A stretch of 45,231 nt of DNA from Candidatus Aenigmatarchaeota archaeon (GTDB lineage Archaea > Aenigmatarchaeota > Aenigmatarchaeia > QMZS01), in assembly GCA_016932615.1 (NCBI GenBank), contig JAFGCN010000029.1:1-45231 (forward strand). Reading direction: 5' to 3'. Each line of letters starts with the position of its first letter. Within the stretch, counting starts at the first letter, position 1. A program made the translations under genes and the position numbers. The notes beneath the pieces were generated by a model. The model was not told where the DNA came from, made no database searches, and saw only the letters and a program-made list of their open reading frames with translations. Positions 18,204 through 36,758 of the stretch are shown one piece after another.

Positions 18204-18250
18204 AACTTAGGTTATTTTGATGTAAGTTAAAGAAAATGCGGCCACCGGGA

Positions 18251-18312
18251 GTTTCGCCAACAGCACCTTTTTGGGGTGCAGACCTTTTAGCCAAACTGGC
18301 CGAAAGGGTTGC
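18251..18312 (-). other. T-loop intron of tRNA-Gly (59/60)
   Basis: 62 nt. Starts GCAACCC. A hairpin closed by CCTTT/AAAGG is followed by AAGGTCTGCACCCCAAAA, the conserved core of the T-arm introns in this window. CAAC near the 5' end can pair with GTTG near the 3' end. Confidence 0.85.
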
Positions 18313-18333
18313 TTCGAACCCGGGTTACTGGCT

Positions 18334-18418
18334 GTTTCCGGCGTCAGGTTATACTTCCGCGAAGCGGGAATATGCTTTCTTTGACGTTGAGGACTTTCTT
18401 TCGCAAAGAAAGTCTTCA
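18334..18418 (-). other. Anticodon-loop intron of tRNA-Gly (37/38)
   Basis: 85 nt. Starts TGAAG, then the hairpin CTTTCTTTGCGAAAGAAAG, an AAAGAAAG stretch, the hairpin CCGCTTCGCGG, and the 3' end GCCGGAAAC. The same elements recur in the tRNA-Glu and (less closely) tRNA-Trp introns. Confidence 0.85.
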
Positions 18419-18483
18419 TGGGAAGCCAGTGTCATGCCACTAAACTATGGCCGCATAATTAATAGTCATAAAAATACTTGATT

Positions 18484-19332
18484 ATGTTACAAGAAATTGA
18501 TAATCTAGACCAAAAAATGAGAGACCTAATACTGAAAAAGGTTAAAAATGGAATTGCTTTGCTTGATAGGTATGACCAAAACTCAGGAGAACAGAAGAAA
18601 GATGCTCTTGCTGAAATTGAGGTAGCGATACACTATATTGAAGAGAGTTATACTTTAGAATATGAACCCGGTCAACTGAAAAAACCTCCCGAATTTAAGA
18701 TATCGGGGACTAAAGATCCATTCTACGTAGAGGTAAAAAGAATCCATGATCCAGTTTACATAAAACGACAAACAGGCATAAATGATCTTAATTCAAGACT
18801 AGAAAAAATACTTCTACCCTATGTAGTGCAGTTCTATCCAAACCAAAACTACAAACTTTCTCAAAACAAAAAAATAGTCGACATCATTCATAAAGAAATG
18901 AACCCCCAAGTAAAATTATTGGAGAAGGAGCTAATTCTAAACTCAACCCGCATTGGAAAGTTCATTTTGGAGAAAAATGATGGATCCTCCAGATGTCAAC
19001 TGGGATTGTGCGGAGTGCAACTAGAATCAAGAATAGACTCCATTAGAACAAATTTAGAAGATGCGAATCGCAAAGATATTCCCAAGGGTAGCAAGTACAT
19101 ACTATTTATCAAAATAGATTACACGTTCACACCCGGAGAACTAGAGGTTGCACCTTGGGGAGATGATGTTCTAAGGATGCAATTCAATAAACAAAACGGC
19201 AGTTGCATTAGAGAAGATTATCTAAAACAAAATAAACGACTAGGTCATTCTAAGCACTTCAAAAAAATTGGTGGGCTTGTGTATTTTGGAAGCAGACTAA
19301 AATATCCATGGACGTATATTAACCCAAAATAA
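18484..19332 (+). CDS. AT-rich hypothetical protein with an ExK motif
   Basis: 282 aa from the ATG at 18484 (an in-frame TTG at 18478 is less likely). The gene is clearly more AT-rich than its neighbours and uses different codons, which suggests transfer. No signal peptide or membrane segment. Around residues 70-90 PPEFKISGTKDPFYVEVKR resembles the core of PD-(D/E)XK nucleases (P-E/D, strand, then E-V-K), preceded by an acidic helix. That is suggestive only. It starts 30 bp from the 5' end of the divergent tRNA-Gly gene; ATAATTAATAG at 18455-18465 may be its TATA box. Confidence 0.7.
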   Translation: MLQEIDNLDQKMRDLILKKVKNGIALLDRYDQNSGEQKKDALAEIEVAIHYIEESYTLEYEPGQLKKPPEFKISGTKDPFYVEVKRIHDPVYIKRQTGINDLNSRLEKILLPYVVQFYPNQNYKLSQNKKIVDIIHKEMNPQVKLLEKELILNSTRIGKFILEKNDGSSRCQLGLCGVQLESRIDSIRTNLEDANRKDIPKGSKYILFIKIDYTFTPGELEVAPWGDDVLRMQFNKQNGSCIREDYLKQNKRLGHSKHFKKIGGLVYFGSRLKYPWTYINPK

Positions 19333-20136
19333 TCAATGCAAACTTATTTCCTTAATTTTAAGCCCGTGTTTTTTCTCAAGAGCCCTTGCCTCGACCTGCA
19401 CCTGGCGGTAAAAGGTGCCCGGGTCGGCTATGTAGCCCCTCAAAAGAGGCACCTTATCCGGAAAATTCGCTTCAAAGACCGGCATTAGACGATCAAGAAT
19501 ATATTTCTTGGTGTTCAAAAGCTCAATGTAGCAGTAGTCGCAGAAACTAAGCTCCCTAAAAAGCTCTTCCAGGTTTGTGATTCCGGGCATCACAGGCGAG
19601 ATAAAAGCGTAAACCCGAAGTCCCTTTTCTTTTGCCTCCTTCAATGTATTGACTCTTTCCGGGGGTGAGGAAGCAAGTGGCTCCAGAACACGGGAGGTTT
19701 TTTCGTCAAGCGTATTAACTGACATTCCAAGCTCGGCGTCAATGGCCTTAAGCAAATCAAAGTCCCTCCTTACAAGAGAGGACTTTGTCAGAACCTCTAC
19801 AGGGAAATCCTTTTTGCGGGGCGACTTTTCAAGCACTTCAAGGATTTTTCGGGTCAGGCCATATTTTGCCTCAAGCGGCATATAGCAGTCGGTAACGCTT
19901 GAAAGCCAAATGTCGCCGGGTCTTGCTAAAAGCAGCTCTTTTTCCAGAAGCTCCGGGCAGTTTACCTTGGCAAAGACAAACTTTCCCCATTCGGCATCGA
20001 TATGCTGGAACCGCTTTATAAACGTTGCGTAGCAGTAGGCGCAGCCGTGCTGGCACCCGGTGTAAGGATTAATCACATAATCGGTGATTTTGCTCTCATT
20101 CAGGCAGGACTTGGCCTGGATTTCCCTTACTTCCAT
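19333..20136 (-). CDS. Radical SAM protein, SplB-like (COG1533)
   Basis: 267 aa. The [4Fe-4S]/SAM motif is GCQHGCAYCYA (C-x3-C-x2-C) near residue 28-36, the spacing of the spore photoproduct lyase-like/Rv2578c group rather than the general CxxxCxxC with Phe. Other family features are KVNCPELLEKEL, DIWLSSVTDCYMPLE and PVEVLTKSS, and PVMPGITN. The reaction is unknown for archaeal members; photoproduct repair is not implied. Its stop meets the end of the AT-rich gene back to back, and it is divergent from the cysteine desulfidase-like gene. Confidence 0.88.
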   Translation of the reverse strand: MEVREIQAKSCLNESKITDYVINPYTGCQHGCAYCYATFIKRFQHIDAEWGKFVFAKVNCPELLEKELLLARPGDIWLSSVTDCYMPLEAKYGLTRKILEVLEKSPRKKDFPVEVLTKSSLVRRDFDLLKAIDAELGMSVNTLDEKTSRVLEPLASSPPERVNTLKEAKEKGLRVYAFISPVMPGITNLEELFRELSFCDYCYIELLNTKKYILDRLMPVFEANFPDKVPLLRGYIADPGTFYRQVQVEARALEKKHGLKIKEISLH

Positions 20137-20227
20137 AAGATTCTGGTGCTGGTTATTGAATATTTCAAAATACCTAGTCCGACGAAAGCACCCAAGCAGA
20201 TTACTTTTACTTCAAAGGGTTATTCTT

Positions 20228-21676
20228 ATGAGCCAAACATTCAACCTGAGTGAATTTTTAGCAGCCAATGTCAGGCCGGCACTGGGCTGCACCGAAGTTG
20301 TGGTGATAGGTCTTGCCAGCAGCGCAGCTTTTTTAGCCTCCCAAGGCAAGTTGCCCTGCTTCCTGCAGAAAAAGCCAGAAGAGACTCAAGCACTGGCTAC
20401 AGCATCCGCTTCAGAAGCAGAGTTACTGTCCCAGCTAGAGGCAGTAAGAATTGAAGTCGACAGAAATGTTTTCAAGAATGCTCTATCAGTAAACCTGCCG
20501 ATGCCTGATGAGCTAATCGACCAGATGGAAAAGGGTATCGAGTTTGCAGCAGCGCTTGGGATTTTTTCTCCATTGGGTCAAAAAAGCGCTGGAGAAATGC
20601 TTAATTTGTTTTCAGCTATCAACCCTGAGCTAATCGCCAAGGCCAAATCCCTAAGGAGGAATGTCCGGTTTAATGTTGAGGTGGTGGATTCCTGGACTGG
20701 ACAGGCCGACCTCAATGTTCGTGTGCAGCTAAGCTTCAAAACCGAAGACAAAACTAAATGCTCAGAAGCAAGAATAAGCCACTCGCATACGCACTTCTCT
20801 TACATTGCCAATTCTATGGAAGTCCTGTACAAGGACGAAGCAAACGATATTGCAACGGAAAACCAGGACAATCAGCTTCTGAAGCTGTCTAAAATGTCCC
20901 TGAGAGACATGATTGATACAGCGCAAAATTTGGACTCGCAGGCGTGGATCCTGCTTGAAAAAAATATCCAGATAAACACCGACTTAAGCCTGAAGGGTTT
21001 GGAGGGGCGCCACGGATTAAAGCTTGGTAAGTCCCTTCAAAAGCTGGTCGATGACGGGATTTTGGCAGATGACATGACAAATTATGCCAAGATAAAAGTG
21101 GCAGCGGCAGCCGATGCCCGAATGGGTGGGGCAATGCGGGCGGCCATGAGCACGGCAGGTTCTGGCAACCAGGGAATTGCTGCCACGCTCCCAATCATGG
21201 CCGTGGCAGACAGAATTGGCGCAGAGCAGCTAAATATTAGTGCAACCGAGCAAAAAAAGCGCTTGATGTCAGCATTGGCTCTGTCCCATTTGCTGACTTC
21301 CTATATTGCTTATTACGCCGGACACTTGTCCGCACTTTGCGGCTGCGCAGTAAAAGCTGGAATCGGCGCGGCAGCAGGGATAAGCTTTTACCTGGGAGGA
21401 GACGAAAAAAAGATCACTGGCGCCATCAACAATGTGGCCGCTAACATTATAGGAATTATCTGTGATGGCGCCAAAGAAGGATGCGCCCTTAAGCTGGCCA
21501 CCTCATCAGAAGCAGCAGTTGAAAGCGCACTGCTTGCCATGCAAGAGGTTACTGTGCCATTGGACAACGGCATTCTGGCTGAAACCGTTGAACAGACGCT
21601 GCAGAATATCGGCAAAATCTCCAACGCCATGGTCAAAACTGACCAGGTAATTGTTCAGGAAACCATGTTGAGGTAA
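20228..21676 (+). CDS. L-cysteine desulfidase / serine dehydratase-like (UPF0597)
   Basis: 482 aa from the ATG at 20228. The frame extends upstream but that part is antisense to the SplB-like gene. Family members use a [4Fe-4S] cluster to split L-cysteine to pyruvate, ammonia and sulfide. Conserved sites: PALGCTEVVVIGLA near the N-terminus, DARMGGAMRAAMSTAGSGNQG, CGCAVKAGIGAAAG, and IICDGAKEGCALKLA, which supply the cluster cysteines. It could provide sulfide for Fe-S or tRNA thiolation. Codon choice (frequent CTG, CAG, GCA) differs somewhat from neighbours, which may mean acquisition from bacteria. Confidence 0.88.
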   Translation: MSQTFNLSEFLAANVRPALGCTEVVVIGLASSAAFLASQGKLPCFLQKKPEETQALATASASEAELLSQLEAVRIEVDRNVFKNALSVNLPMPDELIDQMEKGIEFAAALGIFSPLGQKSAGEMLNLFSAINPELIAKAKSLRRNVRFNVEVVDSWTGQADLNVRVQLSFKTEDKTKCSEARISHSHTHFSYIANSMEVLYKDEANDIATENQDNQLLKLSKMSLRDMIDTAQNLDSQAWILLEKNIQINTDLSLKGLEGRHGLKLGKSLQKLVDDGILADDMTNYAKIKVAAAADARMGGAMRAAMSTAGSGNQGIAATLPIMAVADRIGAEQLNISATEQKKRLMSALALSHLLTSYIAYYAGHLSALCGCAVKAGIGAAAGISFYLGGDEKKITGAINNVAANIIGIICDGAKEGCALKLATSSEAAVESALLAMQEVTVPLDNGILAETVEQTLQNIGKISNAMVKTDQVIVQETMLR

Positions 21677-21767
21677 GTGCAAATGATCCCTTGATATGGA
21701 GTGGAGTTTAGGAAAAATAATTTTTCTTTGGGGTAAAGCCACCCTATTTCTAAAAAGAAAGGTTTTT

Positions 21768-22778
21768 ATGATTGAAATCGACGGAAGCTACCTTGAAGGC
21801 GGAGGGCAGATTCTTCGGACAAGCGTTGCCTTGTCAGCTCTTACTAAAACTCCGGTCAGGATTTACAACATCCGGGCAAACCGGCCGCAGGCGGGGCTTA
21901 AGGCACAGCACCTCTCAGCGATAAAGGCGGTTTCCATGCTCTACAACGGCAAACTTACGGGGGACGAGCTTGGCTCGACAGAGATAACCTTCAGCCCGGG
22001 TGAGATGAAAGAAAACCACCTCAAAATCAGCATCGGCACAGCCGGGTCAATTGGGCTTCTTTTGCAGGCAATAATTCTTTCCTCGGTGAACACAGAAAAA
22101 GAGCTCATTGTCGAAGTCGAGGGAGGCGCGACTTTCGGAAAATGGGCGCCGTCTGTTCCGTACCTCCAGAACGTTTTTCTCCCGACAATCAGGAAATTTG
22201 GATTTAGGGGCGAAATCGAAATCATAAAGCACGGCTTTTACCCTAGGGGGGGCGCTAAAGCCATTGCAAGAATAAGCCCCTCAAAAATGAAGGGCCATAT
22301 TTTCGCCCACGAAATAAAATCAGTGAGTGGGCTTTCAGTTGCAACCGAAAACCTCAGGGGCGCAAAAGTCGCAGAAAGGCAGAAAGCAGGCGCAGAGGAA
22401 CTATTGAAAGGGCTGAAAACCCCAATTGAAATAAAAACCAGGTATGTTTATTCCCCGTCGACTGGAACCGGAATCGACCTCTGGTCTGAGCCGACGCTTC
22501 TTGGCGGAAACGCCCTCGGAGAAGTCGGAAAAAAAGCTGAAGACATTGGAAAGGCGGCCGCCAAAACCCTAAAGGAGCTCATCGAGTCTAAGGCGACAGT
22601 TGACAGAAACCTTGCAGACCAGATTCTTCCCTTCATGGCCCTGGCGGAAGGCCACTCCAGCTTTCTTGTAAAAGACTTGTCAAACCACGCAAAGACAAAC
22701 ATCTGGGTGATTGAGCAGTTTTTGGATAGGAAATTCAAAGTAGCTGAAAAGGACGGGTTGGTTGAGGTAGGGATATGA
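21768..22778 (+). CDS. rtcA: RNA 3'-terminal phosphate cyclase
   Basis: Converts RNA 3'-phosphates to 2',3'-cyclic phosphates with ATP, through a covalent adenylate on His. 336 aa from the ATG at 21768; 24 upstream residues open in frame have no counterpart. Motifs: DGSYLEGGGQILRT, ANRPQAGLKAQHLSA, GGATFGKWAPSV, KHGFYPRGGAKA and, near the C-terminus, SNHAKTNIWVIEQFL, whose His is the likely nucleophile. In archaea tRNA halves with such ends arise in splicing, relevant beside intron-rich tRNA genes. The next gene overlaps it by 4 bp. Confidence 0.95.
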   Translation: MIEIDGSYLEGGGQILRTSVALSALTKTPVRIYNIRANRPQAGLKAQHLSAIKAVSMLYNGKLTGDELGSTEITFSPGEMKENHLKISIGTAGSIGLLLQAIILSSVNTEKELIVEVEGGATFGKWAPSVPYLQNVFLPTIRKFGFRGEIEIIKHGFYPRGGAKAIARISPSKMKGHIFAHEIKSVSGLSVATENLRGAKVAERQKAGAEELLKGLKTPIEIKTRYVYSPSTGTGIDLWSEPTLLGGNALGEVGKKAEDIGKAAAKTLKELIESKATVDRNLADQILPFMALAEGHSSFLVKDLSNHAKTNIWVIEQFLDRKFKVAEKDGLVEVGI

Positions 22779-23590
22779 AAACCAATATTAACAACATTAA
22801 AATTATGAAAAAATCCGAGTTCTTTAAAATAATATTTAACCTATTCTGCATCCTCACAGGGATACTGTTTTTAGGACTTATCCTCATATACCCCTACAAT
22901 GCAATCTCCTATTATTTTGGTAAGTCTTTAACAAACTTAATCCTATACATACTAGTACTACTGATAGCTCTATTCTTACTCCTCAGAACTAACTTGGAAG
23001 ATTTTTTCAGATATTTAAGTAAAAAAAGAATATTACGAAACATACCAAATCATTGGTTTATAGATACTGTTCTAGTAATGTTCATATTTTTTTGTATAGG
23101 TCTACTGTTCATAACTTCTGTCTTGGGGGGTTATGAACTCAACTTGGTACTGAGAAATGAAAATCAGCCAAATCTCATCGAAGGAAACATAAACTGCACT
23201 GCATCGGGAAATATTATATTTGTAGGAGAAAAAGTATATTGCAAGTATTCTCCAACCTTATATAATACTACATCTAAAGTCAAATTTAGTTATTTGAACA
23301 AAAGTTTCGAAACTGAAATTTTTTCTGACCAGATAGCCTTCATAGCCCCGGCCAATGTTACAAGCATAGAATTCAGGATAGAAGGCTATGATTCCGAAGG
23401 CAAATTTAGGAAATTAATTGTAAGTAACTCTTATAATTTCCTAAAACCCGAAGAATTTGAGCAGTCTAGAGAAAAATTCATCCAATATCTAATTGCTCTC
23501 CTAGGCGTGATATTTATCTCAGTACCTAGCGCAATGGTAAACCTCAAAAATCTATATTATAATGAGAATAATAAAAAGAGGCGTAAATGA
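22775..23590 (+). CDS. AT-rich hypothetical membrane protein
   Basis: 271 aa. Hydrophobic segments at about 19-45, 52-72 and 93-118, then an extracellular beta-rich domain (about 120-225, with several NxS/T sites), a fourth helix (about 235-258) and a Lys/Asn-rich tail. No family recognised. Overlap with the rtcA stop (ATGA) implies co-translation, but its base composition is far more AT-rich than rtcA. It ends 6 bp before the 3' end of the opposing tRNA-Glu gene. A foreign gene placed between rtcA and the tRNA is a fair reading. Confidence 0.75.
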   Translation: MKTNINNIKIMKKSEFFKIIFNLFCILTGILFLGLILIYPYNAISYYFGKSLTNLILYILVLLIALFLLLRTNLEDFFRYLSKKRILRNIPNHWFIDTVLVMFIFFCIGLLFITSVLGGYELNLVLRNENQPNLIEGNINCTASGNIIFVGEKVYCKYSPTLYNTTSKVKFSYLNKSFETEIFSDQIAFIAPANVTSIEFRIEGYDSEGKFRKLIVSNSYNFLKPEEFEQSREKFIQYLIALLGVIFISVPSAMVNLKNLYYNENNKKRRK

Positions 23591-23616
23591 AAAATATGTC
23601 CCTGCCGGGATTTGAA

Positions 23617-23710
23617 TACCCTAGCCAATTTCGCGGTGATATTCCCGCGAAAGCGGCAAAACCCCTTTCTTGGAGTTGTCAGACCTTCTTTCTGGGAAAG
23701 AAGGAATGAC
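23617..23710 (-). other. T-arm intron of tRNA-Glu (53/54)
   Basis: 94 nt. Starts GTCATTCC; nine-base-pair hairpin CCTTCTTTC/GAAAGAAGG; then GGTCTGACAACTCCAAGAAA and a GC-rich 3' part with a CCGCTTTCGCGG-like hairpin. The 5' half matches the tRNA-Asn and tRNA-Trp T-loop introns although the insertion site differs. Confidence 0.85.
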
Positions 23711-23725
23711 CCCGGGTCTTCGGCT

Positions 23726-23823
23726 GTCTCCGTCCAGCGCTCGGGGCGCTATTATTCCGCGAAGCGGAAAAATCCCCTTTCTTTTGCGCCTGGGGCTTTT
23801 CTTTCTGGGAAAGAAAAGCTTCA
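23726..23823 (-). other. Anticodon-loop intron of tRNA-Glu (37/38)
   Basis: 98 nt. Starts TGAAG; hairpin CTTTTCTTTC with GAAAGAAAAG; AAAAGAAAGG; hairpin TTCCGCTTCGCGGAA; 3' end GGACGGAGAC. It shares order and sequence of elements with the tRNA-Gly intron. Confidence 0.85.
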
Positions 23824-23890
23824 CGAGAGGCCGATATCCTGGACCGGACTAGACTACAGGGACATATAATAAAAAAGACTAAAATAACTT

Positions 23891-24355
23891 ATGGCCACAC
23901 TTCTGCCCCCAGGGATGGTGGAATTAGTCGTTCCCTTCGCCCTTACGTTCGCTTTAGTTCTTGGAGCGCTTAACTTGTCGGGGGTATTTAAAGGCCAAAA
24001 ACAGGTCAATTTCATCATAGGGCTTGCCGTTGCGCTTCTTGCATCCTCATCGGAAGAATACTCAAAAATGGTTCTGGAATGGGCGCCAATACTTGCGACC
24101 GTAATGATTGTCGTTTTCCTTGTGGTTTTCCTCAAAAACATGTTCGGGACAGAAAAGAAGGCAAGCTGGGAGATGCTGGTAATACTTGCCCTCCTGTTTT
24201 TGGTGCTTCTGGCGGTAGGGCCGTACCTGCCGCTTCCTTCTGGCTCTTCGATAAAATCAGATGACATTCTGCTGGTTGGAGGAATTCTTCTGGTAATCGG
24301 GATAATCGCAATAGGCGCCCGGCTTAAAAATGAGGGGTTTGGTGGGGGCAGCTAA
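23891..24355 (+). CDS. Hypothetical four-helix membrane protein
   Basis: 154 aa, almost all membrane. Helices at about 10-30, 40-52, 66-86, 94-112 and 127-145, with a short Lys/Glu loop (NMFGTEKKASW) and a Gly-rich end. No family recognised. It ends with a 4 bp overlap with the convergent Pus10-like gene. It starts 28 bp from the divergent tRNA-Glu 5' end. Confidence 0.75.
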   Translation: MATLLPPGMVELVVPFALTFALVLGALNLSGVFKGQKQVNFIIGLAVALLASSSEEYSKMVLEWAPILATVMIVVFLVVFLKNMFGTEKKASWEMLVILALLFLVLLAVGPYLPLPSGSSIKSDDILLVGGILLVIGIIAIGARLKNEGFGGGS

Positions 24356-25488
24356 TATAAGTCTTTTGGCTTCATTGTCTTGAACCGTCTCAAAACTATC
24401 GACTCAACTTCAAATGGCTTTCCAAGAATCCCCTCAAGGTTTGGCCTGCTTTTCCCTGTAAGAAAGGAGTTCACTGAAAATCCGACAGTGGTTTCCACTT
24501 CAAGAAGCATCTTGTCTCCTTCAAACTTTGGTGAAATCTTTCTCATGTAAGGCCTTCTTGTTTTCTGCTTTAATATCTGGACAACCCTCTTTTTCCTCAA
24601 AGCCCTTATCGCCTTAATGGCCTCCTTTTTCTCCTCCTCGCTAAGTGGCTCAAACTTGAGGGTTATGAGAAAATTGGCTGCAATCTTGTCGCTTTTCATG
24701 GCATCAAGCTCCTCTTTGCTTGAAAAAGACATTTTAGAAACCGAGATGGACTTTCTCTGGTTTATTTCGCTGCGGATTTTTCCGAGCTTGAGCTTTCTGA
24801 CCTTTGGTGTCCTGAGCATGAGGACAAACGGGCGATAGGCAGCCGTAAGCGTGTTTTCCTCGAGCCGCCCTACTGAATAGAAAACCGCCTCTCTAGCGCC
24901 CGACTTTTCAAGGAAGGTTCCTTCAATATACTTTTGCACCTTTCCTTTCGGGAGAAGCTTCTTGTACCCACCCTTTATGTAAAGCGGGGAAACCTGGGCA
25001 ATTATCTTGCCGTTTGGAATATCTATGATAGCAGTCATATCGGGCCCGTCAAACTCTATTTTCTTTCCTGTCTTTTCCCTGACCTTGAGCCCCACGGACC
25101 GGTTGAAATTGGACTTTATGGACTCGCAGGAGCCGACGCCGTGCTCTTCCCAGAACTCTTCCTCTATCGTGAACAGCTCAGGAGGCAGTATGGAGCCCAC
25201 AAGAAAGGTCTCATAGTCAAACTCCTTCACGGCTTCGGCTACCATTTCCGAGTACGTCTCGACCTCCCTGAAAAGGTTCTTGCACAGGCAGCAGTTCTCG
25301 ACCTTTTTGTATTCTGCCGGCTTTTCTCTTGCAGCGTCCTCCAGGATTATAAAATTCCTTATGGCCCGCCCAATCTCAAAATTGGGAAGCTTTGGGTTAA
25401 GGGCATGAAACTGCCTGCCGAGGCACTCGTCGCATATTTCGCAGCTCTTGATTATTTCCCTGGCCCTTCCAGACAAGTCCGCTTCCAT
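24352..25488 (-). CDS. Pus10-like tRNA pseudouridine synthase, catalytic Asp apparently lost
   Basis: 378 aa. Archaeal Pus10 makes pseudouridine at tRNA positions 54 and 55. Homology: N-terminal zinc-type Cys (CEICDEC and CCLC), the THUMP-like middle, SPLYIKGGYKKLLPKGKVQ, YRPFVLMLRTPKVRKLKL, and the C-terminal VGFSVNSFLTGKSRPNLEG. In known Pus10 a GREDxDxR stretch before GRPF carries the catalytic Asp. Here the stretch is GRLEENTLTAAYRPF (207-221), without Asp, and the Cys-rich insert after the IPQ-like site is missing. It is probably inactive as a synthase, or divergent in mechanism. Confidence 0.82.
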   Translation of the reverse strand: MEADLSGRAREIIKSCEICDECLGRQFHALNPKLPNFEIGRAIRNFIILEDAAREKPAEYKKVENCCLCKNLFREVETYSEMVAEAVKEFDYETFLVGSILPPELFTIEEEFWEEHGVGSCESIKSNFNRSVGLKVREKTGKKIEFDGPDMTAIIDIPNGKIIAQVSPLYIKGGYKKLLPKGKVQKYIEGTFLEKSGAREAVFYSVGRLEENTLTAAYRPFVLMLRTPKVRKLKLGKIRSEINQRKSISVSKMSFSSKEELDAMKSDKIAANFLITLKFEPLSEEEKKEAIKAIRALRKKRVVQILKQKTRRPYMRKISPKFEGDKMLLEVETTVGFSVNSFLTGKSRPNLEGILGKPFEVESIVLRRFKTMKPKDLY

Positions 25489-25518
25489 AAGATAAAGGCG
25501 GGCAAAATGGTTAAGAAG

Positions 25519-26685: not shown

Positions 26686-26739
26686 AATATAATTTAGGGA
26701 TTTGGAGAGAAAAGGTATTGATTTGAAAATAGGTTCTTT

Positions 26740-28398: not shown

Positions 28399-28462
28399 AA
28401 AAAGATATGCCTCCATAGGACAAAGTGAGCTTAAAAAAGGTAAAATGGGTCGAAATAAGGCA

Positions 28463-28492
28463 TTTTAAATATATATAACCCAGGGGTATCAA
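28463..28492 (+). promoter_or_regulatory. TATA-like element followed by ACCCAGGGGTATCAA
   Basis: TTTTAAATATATATA is followed directly by ACCCAGGGGTATCAA in the DNA ligase-glycosyltransferase gap. A near copy with the same TATA-first arrangement lies on the minus strand at 35943-35968. It could be an upstream promoter, an operator or an RNA start. Confidence 0.35.
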
Positions 28493-28498
28493 TCCATA

Positions 28499-28508
28499 AG
28501 TATATAAT
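28499..28508 (+). promoter_or_regulatory. TATA box of the glycosyltransferase gene
   Basis: AGTATATAAT, centred about 23 bp before the ATG at 28526. Confidence 0.5.
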
Positions 28509-28525
28509 TTTGACTAACTAATAGT

Positions 28526-29554: not shown

Positions 29555-30483
29555 GGGGTCTTTCATTGGCGGTGCACATACTGATAATTATCGTGTTTGC
29601 TGTAAAAAAGAAGCTGAACATTGCGCTAGGGCGCTTTAGTTCAGGGCCTCTTAAGAAGATACTCCCTCTAGTCATTATCTCCTGCCTTTTCTTCATAATC
29701 TCGACCAGCTCAATTGCCGCACTCAATACCACCTTAAATAGCCGCCCTAACTGGGAATTGCTTGAGACGCCCGAAAAGTGCCAGGAAATAACACCGGAAA
29801 TAAGCCAGAGAACCGTTGTTCTGAGAATTGATGACGTGCAGGCATTTGCCTGGAGAAACGCTACCATTACGTTACTTGGCGACTCCCTGCAGAGAGGAAT
29901 TCCCCTTTCCGTGGGATTAATCCCTTATGCAATCGAAAGTGATGCCGAGATGTACAGATTTCTCTATGAAAACCGGTGCAAAATCGAAATATGCCTTCAC
30001 GGCTGGAGCCTGACTTCAAAAGCGCATAGCCGGTATGAAATCGAAAGGCAGGAAATAGACAAAAGCGCAAATGACCTAATGCGTGCAAAGTCAAAAATGG
30101 AGCAGCTTTTCGGGGTAGAAATTGTCACCTTTATGCCGCCCGAAAATGTTTACCCGGAAGCGCTTGAAAGCGTTATCCAAAATGCAGGATTTAGTATAAT
30201 CTCCTCGGAAGGAAGTGGATACTATGACTACACTGCTTCGACATACAACTTCCAGAAGAATGAGATTGTAAGCACCCAGGAGATAATTGAATTGTGCGAG
30301 AAGGCCTTCTATGAAGGCCAGCCATGTATCATAATGGTCCACCCACAGGATTACACAACTGGCGGCATGCTCGACAAGGAAAAATATAAAAATTACCTCC
30401 AGATGCTCGATGAGCTTGAAAAAAGAGGAGTAAGCTTTGCCCGGCTTAAAGATTTGCCAGAAGAGGCGTTAGCTGGGGAGTAA
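29542..30483 (+). CDS. Polysaccharide deacetylase-like protein (DUF2334 type)
   Basis: 313 aa from the ATG at 29542, inside the end of the glycosyltransferase. N-terminal helices at about 8-21 and 40-57, so the catalytic part faces outside. LRIDDVQAF gives the D-D pair, IEICLHGW the metal His (153), KAHSRYE a second His (162), and CIIMVHPQDY the late His. MPPENVYPEA resembles the conserved Pro segment. It probably deacetylates the product of the preceding glycosyltransferase, as PgaB does for PgaC. Convergent with the DUF2330-like gene. Confidence 0.85.
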   Translation: MQFVGGLSLAVHILIIIVFAVKKKLNIALGRFSSGPLKKILPLVIISCLFFIISTSSIAALNTTLNSRPNWELLETPEKCQEITPEISQRTVVLRIDDVQAFAWRNATITLLGDSLQRGIPLSVGLIPYAIESDAEMYRFLYENRCKIEICLHGWSLTSKAHSRYEIERQEIDKSANDLMRAKSKMEQLFGVEIVTFMPPENVYPEALESVIQNAGFSIISSEGSGYYDYTASTYNFQKNEIVSTQEIIELCEKAFYEGQPCIIMVHPQDYTTGGMLDKEKYKNYLQMLDELEKRGVSFARLKDLPEEALAGE

Positions 30484-30506
30484 GTAGGCAGCAGGCGTAA
30501 GCCAGA

Positions 30507-32225
30507 TTACAGCAACAAACCGTAGAATATCCAGGTGGCAAAAATCATGGCCAGGAAAATCACCGAGAACAGTATCGTAAGCTTGAGTAGGTTCTTGTTT
30601 TTGTAGTAGCCCCAGGTGACTGGAAGTATGAACAGCAGAAGAAAGGTTATCATGACAGGCCAGGCCATCAGGAACTCCATCAAATCGAAAAGACTTGGAT
30701 AGCGCAAAAGGCGTGGAAGTGTAGACAGCGCCAGGATGAGCATCGGCAGGATGCTTAAGGCAACAGAAGCCAGAAACGCCTTGAACATAATCTCCCCGTG
30801 GCTTACTTTTGCCTTAACAGTTTCCTTCACGCTTGTAAAGCGGGACTCCACCTTGAAAACGTAAGCTGCCAGCAGGTAACCGATTATAGTAAGCGAATTT
30901 GCAAGCCCCAGAAGCGCAAATTTCCTGCCATCGGGCTTATTTTTCCTGAAAAGGAAAGTCCCGGCAACAAAGCTTGCGGCAGCTGAAAGCACAAGGAAGG
31001 TAACCAGCGCCCACCAGAAGGTGTGCTCATAAATAACATCTGCTAATGCCACCTTCAAAGGAGCCCGGGAGGCAATCCAAAGATCATCTATCAGATACTT
31101 GGAGGGGGCGTTTATCTCAATTTTGGTGTATTCCTCTACTGAAGAAGAGGAGCCCCCATAGAAACTTGACAACTCCCGGGAGTAAGGGGCATAGCTAGAA
31201 ACCTGATAAGTGGTTGTAGCGTAGGGCTTTATCTTGGAGTAAACCTCTGGAGTTACGTGTCCTAGGACATATACCTTCATAGGTATAACTTTGCTTTCAT
31301 AGGTGCTTGTAAGCTTCATCGGGAAGAATATCTTTTCTGTTGGAAAGCTTACAAATATGCTCAGGCGCTTTGCAGGGTAATTTTTATAGTCATAATAGGT
31401 CTCTGGATAGTTTTCCCAGTAGTACTCCTCACACAGTTCGATTGGAACTGTTCTACCGGCATCACAATGAGAGTCCGACCAGTAGGGAATTCTATCGGAT
31501 GACCTGCAGCAGTAATCTCCTCTATAGATGGGGTCTCTTGTGCTGTCGCCCTGAGAGCCGAGGTTTCCGGTGTACCAGGAAACGACAAACGAATAATCCT
31601 TTTCTAGATAAGTCTCTGCAACATTGTTGAACTTTTCAGGTATTGTCAGGTTCTTTGAAAGCAGGTACCTGTAAAATGATTCCTTATCCTCAGCAGTTAT
31701 AAGCTCAGTAGTGAGCCCAAGCTTTTCAAGGTGCTCATAGACCATAACTCCCTGCACGGAATCGTAACCTGAGAGGGCCTTTGTATTTTCAAGAACTGAT
31801 ACGCTCATGGTGCCCATGAGCCAGAAGGGAATTCCAATCGGGAAAGTGTAGACTTGTGTAAGAGACATCATGAATAGAGATTCTGAAACCTTCTCTTTTG
31901 CCTCACCGCCAACTTCGTTTCCGTAAAAAGATGGAAACTCATTAAAAGTGTCAATAAGCACGTCATCCGGCTTTGCGGGAACCGGAAAAATCCAGACTGC
32001 GCCGCTTGAAGCAAAATCTTCCGACTCGATTGACAGAAGCATCCTTTCCATCCCGCCCGCATAGTTTATTGCGCAGACCTGGTTATTCATGTCCTGAAGC
32101 TCATAAACTAACAGGTCATCGTAACTTGGCCTGAAAAGCCCGCCATCGGCAAAAGCACAAGCCGAGAATGCAAAAAACACGGATAAGAGTAGACCAAACA
32201 GGGCAACTATGCCTCTGCACTTCAT
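30507..32225 (-). CDS. DUF2330-like secreted/membrane protein
   Basis: 572 aa. A signal peptide (GIVALFGLLLSVFFAFSACAFA) is followed by DGGLFRPSYDDLLVYELQ, a DUF2330-like start, with ERMLLSIESED and VWIFPVPAKPDDV typical of that family. The outer region (to about 395) contains a Cys pair cluster (DYCCRSSD). At least four membrane helices follow (about 402-425, 440-460, 488-507, 520-545 and 550-570). Function unknown. It is a large surface protein, transcribed divergently from the DHH gene. Confidence 0.78.
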   Translation of the reverse strand: MKCRGIVALFGLLLSVFFAFSACAFADGGLFRPSYDDLLVYELQDMNNQVCAINYAGGMERMLLSIESEDFASSGAVWIFPVPAKPDDVLIDTFNEFPSFYGNEVGGEAKEKVSESLFMMSLTQVYTFPIGIPFWLMGTMSVSVLENTKALSGYDSVQGVMVYEHLEKLGLTTELITAEDKESFYRYLLSKNLTIPEKFNNVAETYLEKDYSFVVSWYTGNLGSQGDSTRDPIYRGDYCCRSSDRIPYWSDSHCDAGRTVPIELCEEYYWENYPETYYDYKNYPAKRLSIFVSFPTEKIFFPMKLTSTYESKVIPMKVYVLGHVTPEVYSKIKPYATTTYQVSSYAPYSRELSSFYGGSSSSVEEYTKIEINAPSKYLIDDLWIASRAPLKVALADVIYEHTFWWALVTFLVLSAAASFVAGTFLFRKNKPDGRKFALLGLANSLTIIGYLLAAYVFKVESRFTSVKETVKAKVSHGEIMFKAFLASVALSILPMLILALSTLPRLLRYPSLFDLMEFLMAWPVMITFLLLFILPVTWGYYKNKNLLKLTILFSVIFLAMIFATWIFYGLLL

Positions 32226-32293
32226 AAGTATATCCAGGGTTTTATATATTACAATTCAATAGGCAGCCCTTTAATTGCATTCAGAATATACTA

Positions 32294-33589
32294 ATGGACT
32301 TTAAAGAAGCCGTTCAAAAAACAAGAAACGCAAAAAAAATCCTTGTCGTGTCGCACTACGACTGTGACGGCATATGCTCTGCAAAGATTCTCTCCGAGGC
32401 CCTGAGAAGGGAAGGAAAAATTGTGGAGGTCATGGTTGCAAAAGAGATAAGTGAAGAGATTATCGAAAAGGTGAAAAAAATTGAGTCAGACCTGATAATA
32501 TTTTCAGACCTTGGCTCCGGATACCTCTCCCTTATCCCAAAAGACAGAAACATCGTGATACTTGACCACCATGAGCCGGAAACGCCTGAAGTTTCTCCCA
32601 ACATAACCCACATAAACCCCTGCACGGAAGGAAAAACGCTTTGCGGCTCGGGAGTCTGCTACTGCTTTGCAAAAGGGCTTAGCAAGAACAATTTTGACCT
32701 TGTGGACTTTGCGGTTGTCGGCTCTATCGGTGACAACCAGGTGCAGGAAGGGGAAAACAAGAATATTGTCGATGAAGCCGAAAAACTCGGGCGGCTCCAG
32801 ACAGAAAAAGGCCTGAACATTTTTGGGCATGTGAACCGCCCCCTCAGCAGGTCGCTTATGAACTCAAACCACATACCACTTAAAAGCGAGTCCGAAGCAA
32901 TACAGTTCCTGAGGGAACTGAACATTGAAATCAACGGGAATGGCAAGATCAAAAGCTACTGCGACCTTGCCGACAGGGAAAAAGAAATACTGAAAAACGA
33001 AATCCTGAAGGAAGCCCTAAGGCAGGACCTTGCAGAGCCATCAAAAGTATTTTCAAATATTTACATTCTCACACAGAAGCCAAAAAAGATTATGGACGCA
33101 CAGGAGCTTTCTACAACTCTCAACGCTTTTGGGCGGCTTGAGAAGTTCGACGAGGTTTTCGAGGTCCTTTCGGGAAACCTAGAAAAAATAGATGAAGTCA
33201 TGTACGAGTACCGCCAGAAAATCTCAAGCGGGCTTTCGTGGCTTAACAAAAACCTGCCCAGTTTCCCCACTGATGAGCTTGCAATGTATATAGACGCCAA
33301 AAACAATGTAGACGAAAATATCATAGGCACAATTGTCTCCATCTACATAAACAATGCCGAAAGCAGGCCGGTCGTCATCGGGCTTGCAGAAGGAAAGGAA
33401 GGCATAAAGATTTCGGCGCGCTCGAAAAACGATAAGGTGGACCTTGACGAAGTGATAAGCAGGGTTTGCGCCGAGTGCGGTGGCTATGGGGGAGGCCACC
33501 CCAAGGCAGCCGGAGGAAAAATAGCCCTCGGAAAAGCCGGGGAATTCATCGAAAAAATGCAAAAAGGGCTTAAAGGGCATTCCTGTTGA
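32294..33589 (+). CDS. DHH-family phosphoesterase (RecJ/GAN-like)
   Basis: 431 aa. Motif I is VSHYDCDGICSA, motif III VILDHHEPET, motif IV VVGSIGDNQ, and the C-terminal DHHA1 motif is GGYGGGHPKAAGG. Archaeal relatives are single-strand exonucleases tied to the replisome (GAN, which binds GINS) or repair enzymes; oligonucleotide phosphatases are the alternative. A linker region (about 195-300) resembles the archaeal RecJ-like proteins. It precedes the eS1 gene by 31 bp, so the two may be co-transcribed. Confidence 0.9.
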   Translation: MDFKEAVQKTRNAKKILVVSHYDCDGICSAKILSEALRREGKIVEVMVAKEISEEIIEKVKKIESDLIIFSDLGSGYLSLIPKDRNIVILDHHEPETPEVSPNITHINPCTEGKTLCGSGVCYCFAKGLSKNNFDLVDFAVVGSIGDNQVQEGENKNIVDEAEKLGRLQTEKGLNIFGHVNRPLSRSLMNSNHIPLKSESEAIQFLRELNIEINGNGKIKSYCDLADREKEILKNEILKEALRQDLAEPSKVFSNIYILTQKPKKIMDAQELSTTLNAFGRLEKFDEVFEVLSGNLEKIDEVMYEYRQKISSGLSWLNKNLPSFPTDELAMYIDAKNNVDENIIGTIVSIYINNAESRPVVIGLAEGKEGIKISARSKNDKVDLDEVISRVCAECGGYGGGHPKAAGGKIALGKAGEFIEKMQKGLKGHSC

Positions 33590-33620
33590 GTTTTTAAAGA
33601 TTAGGGGGAGTATTATTATA

Positions 33621-34187
33621 ATGAAAGCCAAAGCAGAGTACCCCATAGTAGCCCCCAAGTTCTTTGGAGAGAAAGTTATAGGCACCACTTCAGCGGACAA
33701 GCCCCACAAGTGCTTTGGAAGAAACGTGATGATTTACGGAAGGGCTCTTGAGAGGAACTTCCCAAAACAGTACTACAAATTCACTTTTAAGATAGGTCAG
33801 CTTGAGGATGGCGTTTTCAAGACAGATTTCGTGGGCCACGAGGTTTCAAGGGCCTACATGTCAAAGAACGTCAGGGTTCTCACCACAAGGATAGATACAG
33901 TCATAAAAGAGGTTTCCGAGGACGGATATGACATTACGCTTAAGCCGGTAATCATTACTTCCAAGAATATATGTTCGAGTGTATGCTTCAAGCTTAGAAA
34001 AGAGCTTTCGAAGTTCCTTCGGCTTTACATCCAGAAAAACGACCTTGAGACCATTACAAAGGAAATTATGAGTGACGAACTTCAGGGATACCTCAAGAAA
34101 AGTTTGAATGCCATTTACCCGATAAACACGCTTGAGATAAGGAAAAGCGAGGTGAAAAAGCACGTCGCAAAGGAGCAGCAAAAATAA
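33621..34187 (+). CDS. rps3ae: 30S ribosomal protein eS1 (S3Ae)
   Basis: 188 aa archaeal eS1, a small-subunit platform protein near the mRNA exit. Recognised by PKFFGEKVIGTTSADKPHK, RNVMIYGRALERNF, GHEVSRAYMSKNVR (family signature), RIDTVIKEVSEDGYDI and the C-terminal PINTLEIRKSEV. It is shorter than some archaeal forms by trimming at both ends. A 47 bp gap leads to the next gene in the same direction. Confidence 0.95.
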   Translation: MKAKAEYPIVAPKFFGEKVIGTTSADKPHKCFGRNVMIYGRALERNFPKQYYKFTFKIGQLEDGVFKTDFVGHEVSRAYMSKNVRVLTTRIDTVIKEVSEDGYDITLKPVIITSKNICSSVCFKLRKELSKFLRLYIQKNDLETITKEIMSDELQGYLKKSLNAIYPINTLEIRKSEVKKHVAKEQQK

Positions 34188-34234
34188 GGGCTTGTGAGAA
34201 CTTAATTCCTAATACTCCAATTGGCAAGATAATT

Positions 34235-34696
34235 ATGGCCTTTGTTGGAGTTATCATTGAGGAAAGTCTTGAAGACAAGGAAATTCTCCAGAAGGTAAAA
34301 ATCATAAAGACTGTTGTCGAGAAAGTAACTGCAAAACATAAGACTCCCTGGATAAAGCATTGGACGCTTCACACAGTTGAAGTCCCGGAAAATCGGGCAG
34401 AAGCAGTTGCCAAAGACTTAAGCAAAGCCCTCGACTCAAGGCACGACTGGTACGCCGACTTCAAGGATGAGCATACTCACTATATAATCTTCAAAAGCAA
34501 GGTATTTTTGATAGACCGGACAAGAAGGGAGCAATATGAAGAAGCTACAAAATATGGCATATCCCTAGGCATACCGAAATACCAGGTGGATTTTTCTCCT
34601 CAGGTCAAATTAGAGAAGACGCAAGGCCACGCTAAACAAAATCCAGGTAAGACCTCAGTTTTCTGTGCCATGGAATCTGGTAAGCCCTCCCGGTAA
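34235..34696 (+). CDS. Conserved hypothetical protein
   Basis: 153 aa, soluble. I recognise the pattern of a small conserved protein with no known function: KHKTPWIKHWTLHTVEVPE, then a hydrophilic helix, HDWYADFKDEHTHYIIFKSKVF and EATKYGISLGIPKYQVDF. Two His-rich stretches are prominent. The last ~20 residues overlap the 3' end of the convergent MinD-like gene by 65 bp and may be less conserved. Confidence 0.78.
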   Translation: MAFVGVIIEESLEDKEILQKVKIIKTVVEKVTAKHKTPWIKHWTLHTVEVPENRAEAVAKDLSKALDSRHDWYADFKDEHTHYIIFKSKVFLIDRTRREQYEEATKYGISLGIPKYQVDFSPQVKLEKTQGHAKQNPGKTSVFCAMESGKPSR

Positions 34697-35399
34697 TTCC
34701 TGCGGCAAGCTTCATTATCTTGAGAGATGACCTCCCATGCGGCTTGAAGTGGATTACCGGCATCCTTTTTGAAAGGGCATAGCGCATGTTATCGTCGTCG
34801 GGTATCGTTTCAAGAATTGGTGTTTCTTCCAGAAGGGACAGGACATGCTCTTTTTTTGTTTCATATGGCTTGTTTCTGTGCATGTTTATGACCGTTCCAA
34901 GATAGCTGCGGTCTGACTTTTTAATAAGCTCTATTGATTTGAGAAGGTCTGTAAGCGCCGGAAGGTCAGGAGTTGAGACCCCTATTATCTCATGGGAAGC
35001 TCCAAGAACGCCCATTGCCTCCCCCCCAAGCCCAGGCGCTCCGTCGATAAGTATATAGTCCAAGCGCCCCAATAGGTCCCGAAGCCGGGAGCCAAGGTAC
35101 ATTGGGTTTGTCCCCTCAAGGTCGCTTACATTCAGAGAGGCGGGAATTATTTTCATTCCCGAAGGGAGAAGCTTCATCACATCGTATATGTCGACCCTTC
35201 CCTTTAAGACATCATGGAGGGAAATGTTGCCGGGCGCAAGGCCTGCATGTATTGATAGGTTTGGGGTGGTCACATTGCCATCAACTATTGCCACATTCAT
35301 TCCAAGATCAGTCATGGCAGCGCCAAGGTTAAAGGTCAGGGTAGTCTTTCCGACTCCGCCTTTTCCGGAAAGGATACCTATAACTCTGGTATAAGCCAT
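34632..35399 (-). CDS. MinD-like P-loop ATPase
   Basis: 255 aa ParA/MinD family. Deviant Walker A GKGGVGKTT at about 11-19, switch I VDGNVTTPN, Walker B YILIDGAPG. The C-terminus (LRSYLDFV) is a poor amphipathic membrane-targeting helix, so membrane binding is uncertain. MinD-like proteins position surface or division structures in archaea; the partner is not in the window. The gene overlaps the opposing gene's 3' end. The tRNA-Trp gene lies directly upstream on the same strand. Confidence 0.9.
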   Translation of the reverse strand: MAYTRVIGILSGKGGVGKTTLTFNLGAAMTDLGMNVAIVDGNVTTPNLSIHAGLAPGNISLHDVLKGRVDIYDVMKLLPSGMKIIPASLNVSDLEGTNPMYLGSRLRDLLGRLDYILIDGAPGLGGEAMGVLGASHEIIGVSTPDLPALTDLLKSIELIKKSDRSYLGTVINMHRNKPYETKKEHVLSLLEETPILETIPDDDNMRYALSKRMPVIHFKPHGRSSLKIMKLAAGITGRAYQIPWHRKLRSYLDFV

Positions 35400-35456
35400 A
35401 ACTATAACCTACTGGATAGATTAAAGAAGCTTTTGAAAAGAGTGGGGTTGCAGGGA

Positions 35457-35575
35457 TTTTCCCTATCCCTTTCTTTGAAAAAGAAAGGTCTGTGGTTCAC
35501 CCCAAAGAAAAAAGTTTCGCTTCTTTCTTTGGATTTCCAGACCTTCTTTCCTGTTTTTAAGAAAGAAGGGATGAA
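35457..35575 (-). other. T-loop intron of tRNA-Trp (about 59/60)
   Basis: 119 nt, the longest of the four. Starts TTCATCCC; hairpin CCTTCTTTC/GAAAGAAGG; then AAGGTCTGGAAATCCAAAG. Its 3' half adds AGAAGCGAAACTTTTTTCTT and a CAGACCTT that can pair with the AAGGTCTG core. ATCCC at the 5' end can pair with GGGAT near the 3' end. Confidence 0.82.
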
Positions 35576-35596
35576 TTTGAACCCCGATTAATTGGT

Positions 35597-35730
35597 TTCT
35601 CCGGCAATCTTTGCCCTTTTTTCATCCGGCCGTTTTTTGGTCGTCAAAGCTCCATTATAAGCATTTGCTTCGCAAATGCAAAGTTGCTTCTTTTTGGCTG
35701 AAGCATTTTTCTTGCAAGAAAAAGGCTTCA
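35597..35730 (-). other. Anticodon-loop intron of tRNA-Trp (37/38)
   Basis: 134 nt. Starts TGAAG; hairpin TTTTTCTTGCAAGAAAAA; AAAAAGAAG; hairpin CATTTGCGAAGCAAATG; 3' end GCCGGAGAA. In several euryarchaea the tRNA-Trp intron is a box C/D guide RNA; I see no convincing C and D box pair here. Confidence 0.8.
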
Positions 35731-35768
35731 CTGGAGCCAATTGTGCTGCCTGGTTACACCACAACCCC

Positions 35769-35962
35769 ACAATAGTATTTAGGCAAAGCTTTTAGAATAA
35801 AATTTCGGGTTCCAGCGTTCCGAAAAAGGCGCGATGTCTTAAAAAGAGCTAAATTCACCCGGGAATTCTTTGGAGAGTAGGATACGCCAAGAAAAGGGCC
35901 GGAAGAGAGCCATATGCCTTTATTAGCTTGCCTTCAAAGCGCTTGATACCCCAGGGTATATT
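35769..35962. other. Intergenic stretch between tRNA-Trp and DUF192
   Basis: 194 bp without a convincing ORF. On the minus strand (toward tRNA-Trp) it begins with a TATA-like TTAAAATATA followed by CCCTGGGGTATCAA at 35943-35968. A GC-rich middle follows, then AT-rich DNA just before the tRNA, the likely tRNA promoter. It could encode a small RNA, but I see no class signature. Confidence 0.3.
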
Positions 35963-35968
35963 TTAAGG
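35943..35968 (-). promoter_or_regulatory. TATA-like element followed by CCCTGGGGTATCAA
   Basis: Minus-strand near-copy of the element at 28463-28492. It lies at the stop codon of the DUF192 gene and points toward the tRNA-Trp gene. Confidence 0.3.
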
Positions 35969-36493
35969 CAAAAATAACCGGGCGGCGCGGCCTTCTGAAA
36001 TGCCTTCCTGGGCAGTAGTCCCTGCGTTCAGCTCCAGAACGTACCGGGCAGCCCTTTTTGGGGCGTAGGATGGGCAAAACTCCTCCCTGCAGGGCAGAGC
36101 AGTAATCACCTCTACAACAGACAAATTGCTGTCAAGCCAGATTATGTCCAGGGGAATAAGAGTATTTTTCATCCAGAAGCTCCATTTCTCCTCCCTTTCA
36201 AATATAAAGAGCATGCCCTCTTTTTCCCCAAGAGCATCTCGAAACATGAGTCCCTTCGACCTGAGCTCAGGCGTGTCTGCAATCTGAAGGGCGTAGCAGC
36301 TTTCGCCAAAGCACAAACAGGAACTGGAATTAAGCCCATTTTCAGAACAGGCCAGTGTTTCCTGCGGATAGTTGGTATAGAAGCCCCAAATCCTGAGGGC
36401 AAGAAGACTTGCAAAAACAGTTAAAATAATCAGGCCTGCGCCCCCAAATAAAGTGCGTTTCCGGTTCGAAATATTGCACCTGCCGCCAGCCAT
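35963..36493 (-). CDS. DUF192 family protein with N-terminal membrane anchor
   Basis: 176 aa from the ATG at 36493. A basic segment and one helix (LFGGAGLIILTVFASLLAL) anchor or export it. The DUF192 domain follows: RSKGLMFRDALGEKEGMLF, KWSFWMKNTLIPLDIIWLD, SYAPKRAARYVLELNAG. An upstream ATG at 36565 would add 24 residues with no clear role. A TATA-like AAATATATATTATAAT overlaps the region just before 36493, so the start is not certain. A Cys pair (CLCFGESC) precedes the domain. Confidence 0.8.
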   Translation of the reverse strand: MAGGRCNISNRKRTLFGGAGLIILTVFASLLALRIWGFYTNYPQETLACSENGLNSSSCLCFGESCYALQIADTPELRSKGLMFRDALGEKEGMLFIFEREEKWSFWMKNTLIPLDIIWLDSNLSVVEVITALPCREEFCPSYAPKRAARYVLELNAGTTAQEGISEGRAARLFLP

Positions 36494-36598
36494 ATTATAA
36501 TATATATTTCCTGAGTCAGTTAAGGCCTGCGAAGACCCCCCAGGAAAGCCTAAATGCCATAACATTACGCAAAAGAGGCATTTTTGGCTCGAAAGCAG

Positions 36599-36611
36599 TA
36601 ATTTATTTTTA
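36599..36611 (+). promoter_or_regulatory. TATA box of tRNA-Asn
   Basis: TAATTTATTTTTA is centred about 23 bp before the first base of tRNA-Asn. Confidence 0.5.
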
Positions 36612-36626
36612 CCCTATGTAGGTTAT

Positions 36627-36758
36627 GCCTCAGTAGCTCAGTAGGTAGAGCGAGTGGCTGTTAACCACTAGGTCGAAGGTCCGAGGTCATCCCTTTTCTT
36701 AAAAGAAAAGGTCTAACAACCCCAAAAGAACTGAATGGTGGATATCCTTCCTGAGGCG
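36627..36758 (+). tRNA. tRNA-Asn(GTT) with a T-loop intron
   Basis: Exon 1 (36627-36685) is GCCTCAG, TA, GCTC D arm, AGTGG/CCACT anticodon stem around CTGTTAA, variable AGGTC, T stem GAAGG and loop TCCGAG. Exon 2 (36745-36758) is T, CCTTC, CTGAGGC and G. All stems pair. No anticodon-loop intron, unlike the other three tRNAs. The T loop starts T54-C55-C56, so the near-universal U55 is C; no choice of splice site restores TTC. A T-run (CGCTTTTTTAC) after the gene is a likely terminator. Confidence 0.92.
36686..36744 (+). other. T-loop intron of tRNA-Asn (59/60)
   Basis: 59 nt, the shortest form and so a guide to the minimal element. Starts GTCATCCC; hairpin CCTTTTCTT/AAGAAAAGG; then GGTCTAACAACCCCAAAAG; 3' end GGTGGATA. 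ATCC near the 5' end can pair with GGAT at the 3' end. Confidence 0.85.

Follow-up and report, generated by a model that had tools for sequence, protein, structure and literature searches.

A folded core shared by the tRNA introns of an Aenigmatarchaeota genome points to a family of small insertion elements in DPANN archaea

In the Thermoproteales, tRNA genes contain non-canonical introns, including introns at positions 53/54 and 59/60, and large-scale intron transposition has been described (Fujishima et al., 2010, as cited in PMC4090602); over 70 tRNA introns are present in P. calidifontis (PMC3218864). In Atabeyarchaeia and Freyarchaeia, introns are found in 92-95% of the tRNA genes, often more than one per gene and at non-canonical positions (PMC11291895), and in Caldiarchaeum the integration of mobile elements at tRNA genes was proposed as the cause of intron gain (PMC3293823). 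The origin and movement of tRNA introns are still an open question, and for the Thermoproteales no mechanism of insertion is known (PMC4090602). Here, we analyzed a stretch of 45,231 nucleotides (contig JAFGCN010000029.1, hereafter the window), which is contig C29 of a 1.26-Mb Aenigmatarchaeota metagenome-assembled genome (MAG; G000, 97% complete). As judged from the sequence, nearly every tRNA gene of this genome is interrupted by related inserts with one folded core.

An earlier note on this DNA had claimed a T-arm intron in each of the four tRNA genes of the window. With an intron-tolerant tRNA finder, a script of our own that searches for the parts of the cloverleaf and lets the D, anticodon, and T loops contain introns, we recovered such an intron in tRNA-Gly(CCC), tRNA-Glu(CTC), tRNA-Trp(CCA), and tRNA-Asn(GTT). 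The claimed lengths (62, 94, 119, and 59 nt, respectively) were reproduced exactly, as were the intron starts (GCAACCC, GTCATTCC, TTCATCCC, and GTCATCCC); the insertion sites are 53/54 in Glu and 59/60 in the other three. The four T-arm introns also have one core in common, as had been proposed: the pattern AAAGGTCTR(2-12)CCAAA occurs three times in the window, where 0.02 occurrences are expected. ARAGORN detected zero tRNA genes in the window, and the Rfam tRNA model picked up only tRNA-Asn among the four. No uninterrupted copies were seen among the tRNA-model matches of the genome up to E = 10, and the genome has a single Asn locus. The genes, all found by the intron-tolerant finder, and their introns are as follows.

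18238..18454, minus strand: tRNA-Gly(CCC) gene, with the discriminator A at 18237
18251..18312, minus strand: tRNA-Gly T-arm intron, 62 nt, site 59/60; core at 18263-18312
18334..18418, minus strand: tRNA-Gly anticodon-loop (37/38) intron; second core flavor at 18375-18418
23598..23863, minus strand: tRNA-Glu(CTC) gene
23617..23710, minus strand: tRNA-Glu T-arm intron, 94 nt, site 53/54; core at 23665-23710
23726..23823, minus strand: tRNA-Glu anticodon-loop (37/38) intron; core at 23777-23823
35444..35768, minus strand: tRNA-Trp(CCA) gene
35457..35575, minus strand: tRNA-Trp T-arm intron, 119 nt, site 59/60; direct core at 35523-35575, inverted core at 35461-35513
35597..35730, minus strand: tRNA-Trp anticodon-loop (37/38) intron; core at 35686-35730
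36627..36757, plus strand: tRNA-Asn(GTT) gene, also found by the Rfam tRNA model
36686..36744, plus strand: tRNA-Asn T-arm intron, 59 nt, site 59/60; core at 36686-36730

Two features in this list were absent from the earlier note, namely the second flavor of the core in the 37/38 anticodon-loop introns of Gly, Glu, and Trp and the inverted core copy that forms the 3' end of the Trp T-arm intron. A covariance model (CM) of the core, built from 22 copies, detected both the direct and the inverted core of the Trp intron. The Glu copy, which is in the training set, matched at E 1.5e-9, and the Gly copy, which is outside it, is the most divergent T-arm core (E = 0.09).

Rebuilding the tRNA genes genome-wide with non-canonical introns allowed yielded 33 genes, and all 33 carry introns, although this sample is not blind because the candidates were taken from tRNA-model and core-model matches. 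Together they contain 54 introns, 27 in the T arm, 18 in the anticodon loop, and 9 in the D loop, with uncertain boundaries for a few Ser and Gly introns. Reading by eye added D, anticodon, and T introns in a few further tRNA genes, and in tRNA-Leu(CAA) (C18, near 49 kb) the core was seen in all three arms. The earlier framing needs correction: the core is confined neither to T-arm introns nor to tRNA genes, being present also in D-loop and anticodon-loop introns and at places outside tRNAs. The tRNA-Cys gene at 70.3-71.5 kb of contig C27 (L195) has an anticodon-loop intron and an extra core copy directly at its 3' end.

The T-arm segments appear to be archaeal bulge-helix-bulge (BHB) introns, and we infer that they are spliced in vivo. 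Their removal restores a standard tRNA in 4/4 genes of the window and in the 33 genes of the genome (with C55 in Asn). When the BHB fit was scored on 45 anticodon and T introns with displaced positions as controls, a perfect 4-bp central helix was found in 35, in almost every case at precisely the boundary that the tRNA fold predicts, and the central and outer helices were found together in 28 (62%), compared with 14% in the displaced controls. Within the window, the Asn T-arm intron had 4/4 central, 3/3 outer, and 4/4 inner pairs, and the Gly T-arm intron had 4/4 central and 3/3 outer pairs, with a minimum-energy fold in which both of these helices and a pair of intron hairpins form at the junction. 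The central helix was 3/4 in both Glu and Trp, each with a fold z of -4.9, and a BHB-type fold of the full Asn pre-tRNA was not obtained from energy alone. The genome has one gene for the splicing endonuclease EndA (C18:45567; PF01974, E 2.9e-26), a 320-aa open reading frame (ORF) whose C-terminal part is nearest by sequence to M. jannaschii EndA (structure 1a79). The inner helix on the intron side was weak in many introns; the core hairpin starts 1-5 nt downstream of the 5' splice site and probably stands in for this helix. A separate observation concerns the T loop of mature tRNA-Asn (window 36681), which would read UCCGAGU with C at position 55, where U is near-universal. Six Asn genes of the same family have TTCGAG, and C55 in the window may be a sequencing error, the object of editing, or real.

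The consensus of the core is NNNNA-UC-CC-Y7-loop-R7-GG-UC-UNNNN, followed by a short linker, CC(CC), and a purine tract R7. Its hairpin starts with a lower helix that covaries; a UC/UC internal loop comes next, and then a stem of CC and seven pyrimidines opposite seven purines and GG. Conservation of the core as a fold is supported by the lower helix and by the register of the tract. Four positions of the lower helix form pairs in 98-115 of the 133 copies, where shuffling gave at most 67-78, the base pairing being kept and the sequence not. The purine tract is the parallel complement of the pyrimidine strand of the stem in 78/87 pattern matches, and tract and stem match in register in 167/195 copies (permuted mean 68, maximum 88). 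In the strictest test, limited to copies with one C in Y7 and one G in the tract and permuted within genomes over 5000 rounds, the two were in register in 140/145 copies over five registers, compared with a permuted mean of 73 and maximum of 92; because the copies are related, none of these permutation figures is an exact probability. More than one register occurred within one genome in 16/31 genomes. The antiparallel register had 0 matches among the 145 copies, and Watson-Crick pairing of the tract with the pyrimidine strand of the hairpin was ruled out on these grounds, the relation being parallel. Most likely, the tract lies against the hairpin and supplies a third strand; covariation in register is what a triple-stranded fold would need. 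On the tRNA strand, the third strand would be purine and antiparallel to the stem purines, and on the opposite strand it would be pyrimidine and run in parallel with them, as in classical U.A-U / C.G-C triplexes.

Other structural readings were rejected. A box C/D or k-turn reading of TCTGA...TGATGA applies to one Thr intron only and is not conserved, a hammerhead-like three-way junction is without a conserved catalytic core and without an Rfam match, and an alternative helix downstream of the core was weakly enriched (12% vs 3% permuted). Rfam at E up to 1 returned only tRNA, RNase P, and a chance SNORD match in the window and only tRNA matches at 11 further loci, so that the core has no match to a curated model of a group I/II intron, C/D or H/ACA RNA, or riboswitch. 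The archaeal RNase P RNA lies at window 10328-10617 on the plus strand (58.9 bits vs an Rfam cut-off of 84) and adjoins a gene for the CCA-adding enzyme (10621-11970, minus strand).

blastn matches link introns at the D, anticodon, and T positions of the genome, and near-identical introns are found in tRNAs of different identity and position, as in the Thermoproteales. Similarity was compared with orthology for Asn only, where a T-loop intron is present at the same site in six same-family genomes, with other core flavors, whereas most of the Asn genes read in further families of this class lack one. Against the T introns of Thr(TGT), Gln, and Arg in its own genome, the Asn intron of the window scored 80, 64, and 58; its scores against the orthologous Asn introns of the six genomes were only 13-26. 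Because it is nearer to introns of its own genome than to its orthologs, copying or conversion between tRNAs is indicated, and the earlier proposal that one element was copied between tRNAs is well supported by these scores and the cross-position matches. Its premise that archaeal introns share only the BHB overlooks the transposition of introns described for the Thermoproteales (PMC4090602).

The CM matched 88 places in the genome of the window at E up to 1, including the training copies, which match by construction, and 56 places passed E 0.01, the setting used for relatives. Untrained places were also strong, for example, C22:4186 and C4:16958 with E near 1e-9. Scanned over relatives at E 0.01, the model found the core in 29/60. 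A survey of Aenigmatarchaeota at E 0.001 gave a patchy distribution, with the core in 52/145 genomes; the richest was the genome of the window with 40 copies, and the 93 genomes without a match at E up to 0.001 served as a negative control for the model. A pattern scan over 84,980 species genomes returned at least 114 stretches, of which 80 were listed. Among those listed, 79 were from archaeal MAGs and one was bacterial, and the archaeal labels included Aenigmatarchaeota, Micrarchaeota, Altiarchaeota, Nano-, Pace-, and Woesearchaeota, Diapherotrites, 'Euryarchaeota', and others. The core is thus found in DPANN groups besides the Aenigmatarchaeota. In L145 and on contig 2 of G032 (L226-L228), clustered repeats around core copies share TAGAATGGACCGAGTGGGA in an array-like arrangement. 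In two genomes (L116 and L157), a common stretch CTGACCACACCCCA without an Rfam match lies beside core copies and is possibly the end of an unknown RNA.

In a location survey of 115 core copies found by pattern, 35 were T-loop introns, 13 were at tRNA 3' ends, 10 followed a stop codon, 23 were antisense at an ORF start, where a spacing of 3-9 nt (mostly 7-8) separates the hairpin and CAT, 3 were antisense at a start other than ATG, and 31 received no class automatically, several of them being anticodon or D introns; a few of the classified copies may be misassigned (e.g., L144, which is really at a tRNA 3' end). The ORFs beside the core are strongly biased to information processing and, where annotated, often encode ribosomal proteins (L19e, S15, L31e, S6e twice, L21e, L6, S17e, and an L7Ae/L30e-type protein); others encode RNA polymerase A' and Rpb4, TFS, RfcS, and FEN1, and S12 (with an intein), L40e, and a second RpoF were read by eye. 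A conserved S6e leader was ruled out, and the positions at protein genes are therefore sporadic, because the core model had no match around S6e in 30 relatives. The S12-like ORF, apparently interrupted by an intein, is at L135:2057-4015 and has a core copy at the start codon, and at C11:42449 (L055) in the genome of the window an antisense core copy abuts the start codon of an RfcL-like gene (by eye).

Flanking direct repeats of 16-26 bp were found at 10/79 copies of other DPANN genomes, where 0.4 are expected. Most are at tRNA 3' ends, usually reaching from the T loop to just beyond the tRNA, and at L144 (about 260-460) two tandem insertions occupy one tRNA 3' end with the tRNA end repeated between them. 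These repeats suggest insertion with target duplication and, with it, a route to T-arm introns.

We consider it probable that the T-arm segments are BHB introns derived from a family of small structured insertion elements of DPANN archaea. The elements would be about 45-160 nt in size, and their copies would pass as DNA from one tRNA gene to another, via transposition or gene conversion by a putative enzyme, and would also land at gene ends. Inside tRNA genes, copies may survive because the single EndA can cut the BHB made by the ends of exon and intron, and ligation after the cut would restore the tRNA. A T-arm intron may be born when the first copy of a duplicated tRNA end decays and the second becomes exon 2. 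Several points besides the weak inner helix and the relatedness of the copies weigh against this picture. Direct repeats were not seen at the core copies of the window itself, and no recurrent gene lies beside core copies; a Y1 transposase had 0 matches in G000, and other mobility-enzyme families were not searched. As for the third strand, we know of no stable RNA triplexes with a purine third strand, and the classical U.A-U form would come from the complementary strand, not from the tRNA strand.

Could the segments be ordinary BHB introns that diverged from ancient shared ones, with a core kept by descent and by selection for a hairpin near the 5' splice site, and without mobility? The good fit of the junctions, the position of the Asn introns at one site throughout the family, and the vertical inheritance of introns in many archaea agree with this. 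Introns of different tRNAs within the genome are, however, closer than orthologous ones, the core is also seen next to start and stop codons of protein genes, some copies have direct repeats on either side, and a third strand in register would not be expected from hairpin selection alone; ordinary introns are thus already disfavored and, in our estimate, very unlikely. That the core is a regulatory structure, in RNA or DNA, of the gene-expression machinery (tRNA and ribosomal-protein genes), with introns and 5' leaders as two settings of one device, appears quite unlikely as well. The antisense copies at ORF starts, many of them of expression-machinery genes, would suit such a device, as would the alternative helix in some leaders and the classical triplex geometry that RNA in the leader orientation would have. 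In tRNA introns, however, the opposite strand is transcribed, and the sporadic positions at protein genes, with no match around S6e in 30 relatives, and the many Aenigmatarchaeota genomes without a match (93/145) count against it.

A further alternative overlaps with mobile BHB introns and specifies the step of mobility: the folded DNA strand would be the substrate of a recombinase, as in attC sites or in repetitive extragenic palindromic (REP) elements and their REP-associated tyrosine transposases (RAYT), and the introns would be by-products. Conservation of pairing and not of sequence in the lower helix, copies in both orientations relative to transcription, and paired inverted copies similar to bacterial interspersed mosaic elements (BIME) are in keeping with it, and the direct repeats start in the T loop, the crossover place of some integrases, and end just past the tRNA. 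Because the RAYT-type Y1 transposase is absent from the genome richest in copies, a REP/RAYT system proper was ruled out, and with no other recombinase tested or found we regard the alternative as a whole as doubtful. Returning to the insertion elements, we tentatively put forward a bolder form, to which we would give a lesser though appreciable chance: non-coding mobile elements throughout DPANN archaea, recognized through a triple-stranded fold of one DNA or RNA strand, would integrate at the ends of genes for tRNAs and ribosomal proteins and duplicate the target, and the duplicated tRNA 3' end, from T loop to acceptor, would become exon 2.

If true, such target duplication would give rise to tRNA introns by a direct route. 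With many copies of one element, a recognizable core, several sites per tRNA, and some direct repeats, intron birth becomes testable. Covariation of three strands would be a structural theme new to small genomic elements, and the tRNA sets of DPANN MAGs may seem incomplete to standard tools only through such inserts. In open papers, we found no description of this intron family, its presence in DPANN archaea, copies at protein-gene ends, or three-strand covariation.

Miniature inverted-repeat transposable elements (MITEs), REP/BIME, and integron attC sites resemble the core in being short, non-coding, hairpin-based, and multi-copy, with inverted pairs and with repeats at some insertion sites. 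In contrast to these, the copies inside tRNAs would act here as BHB introns, and the REP-type transposase is missing. What is new here is the purine tract that keeps the register of the hairpin pyrimidine strand. A close case is that of the Thermoproteales, with similar BHB introns across tRNA identities and positions and inferred transposition (PMC4090602); the present family belongs to a distant clade, is marked by a defined core whose hairpin covaries and whose third strand keeps the register, and extends outside tRNAs, with direct repeats at some copies. Atabeyarchaeia and Freyarchaeia are Asgard archaea, and a shared intron core is not mentioned in the excerpt of PMC11291895. Caldiarchaeum shares with our case the direct repeats of tRNA ends and an intron gain tied to integration at tRNA genes, but there the element is large and encodes a recombinase (PMC3293823), whereas here the inserts are non-coding and about 75-160 bp long.

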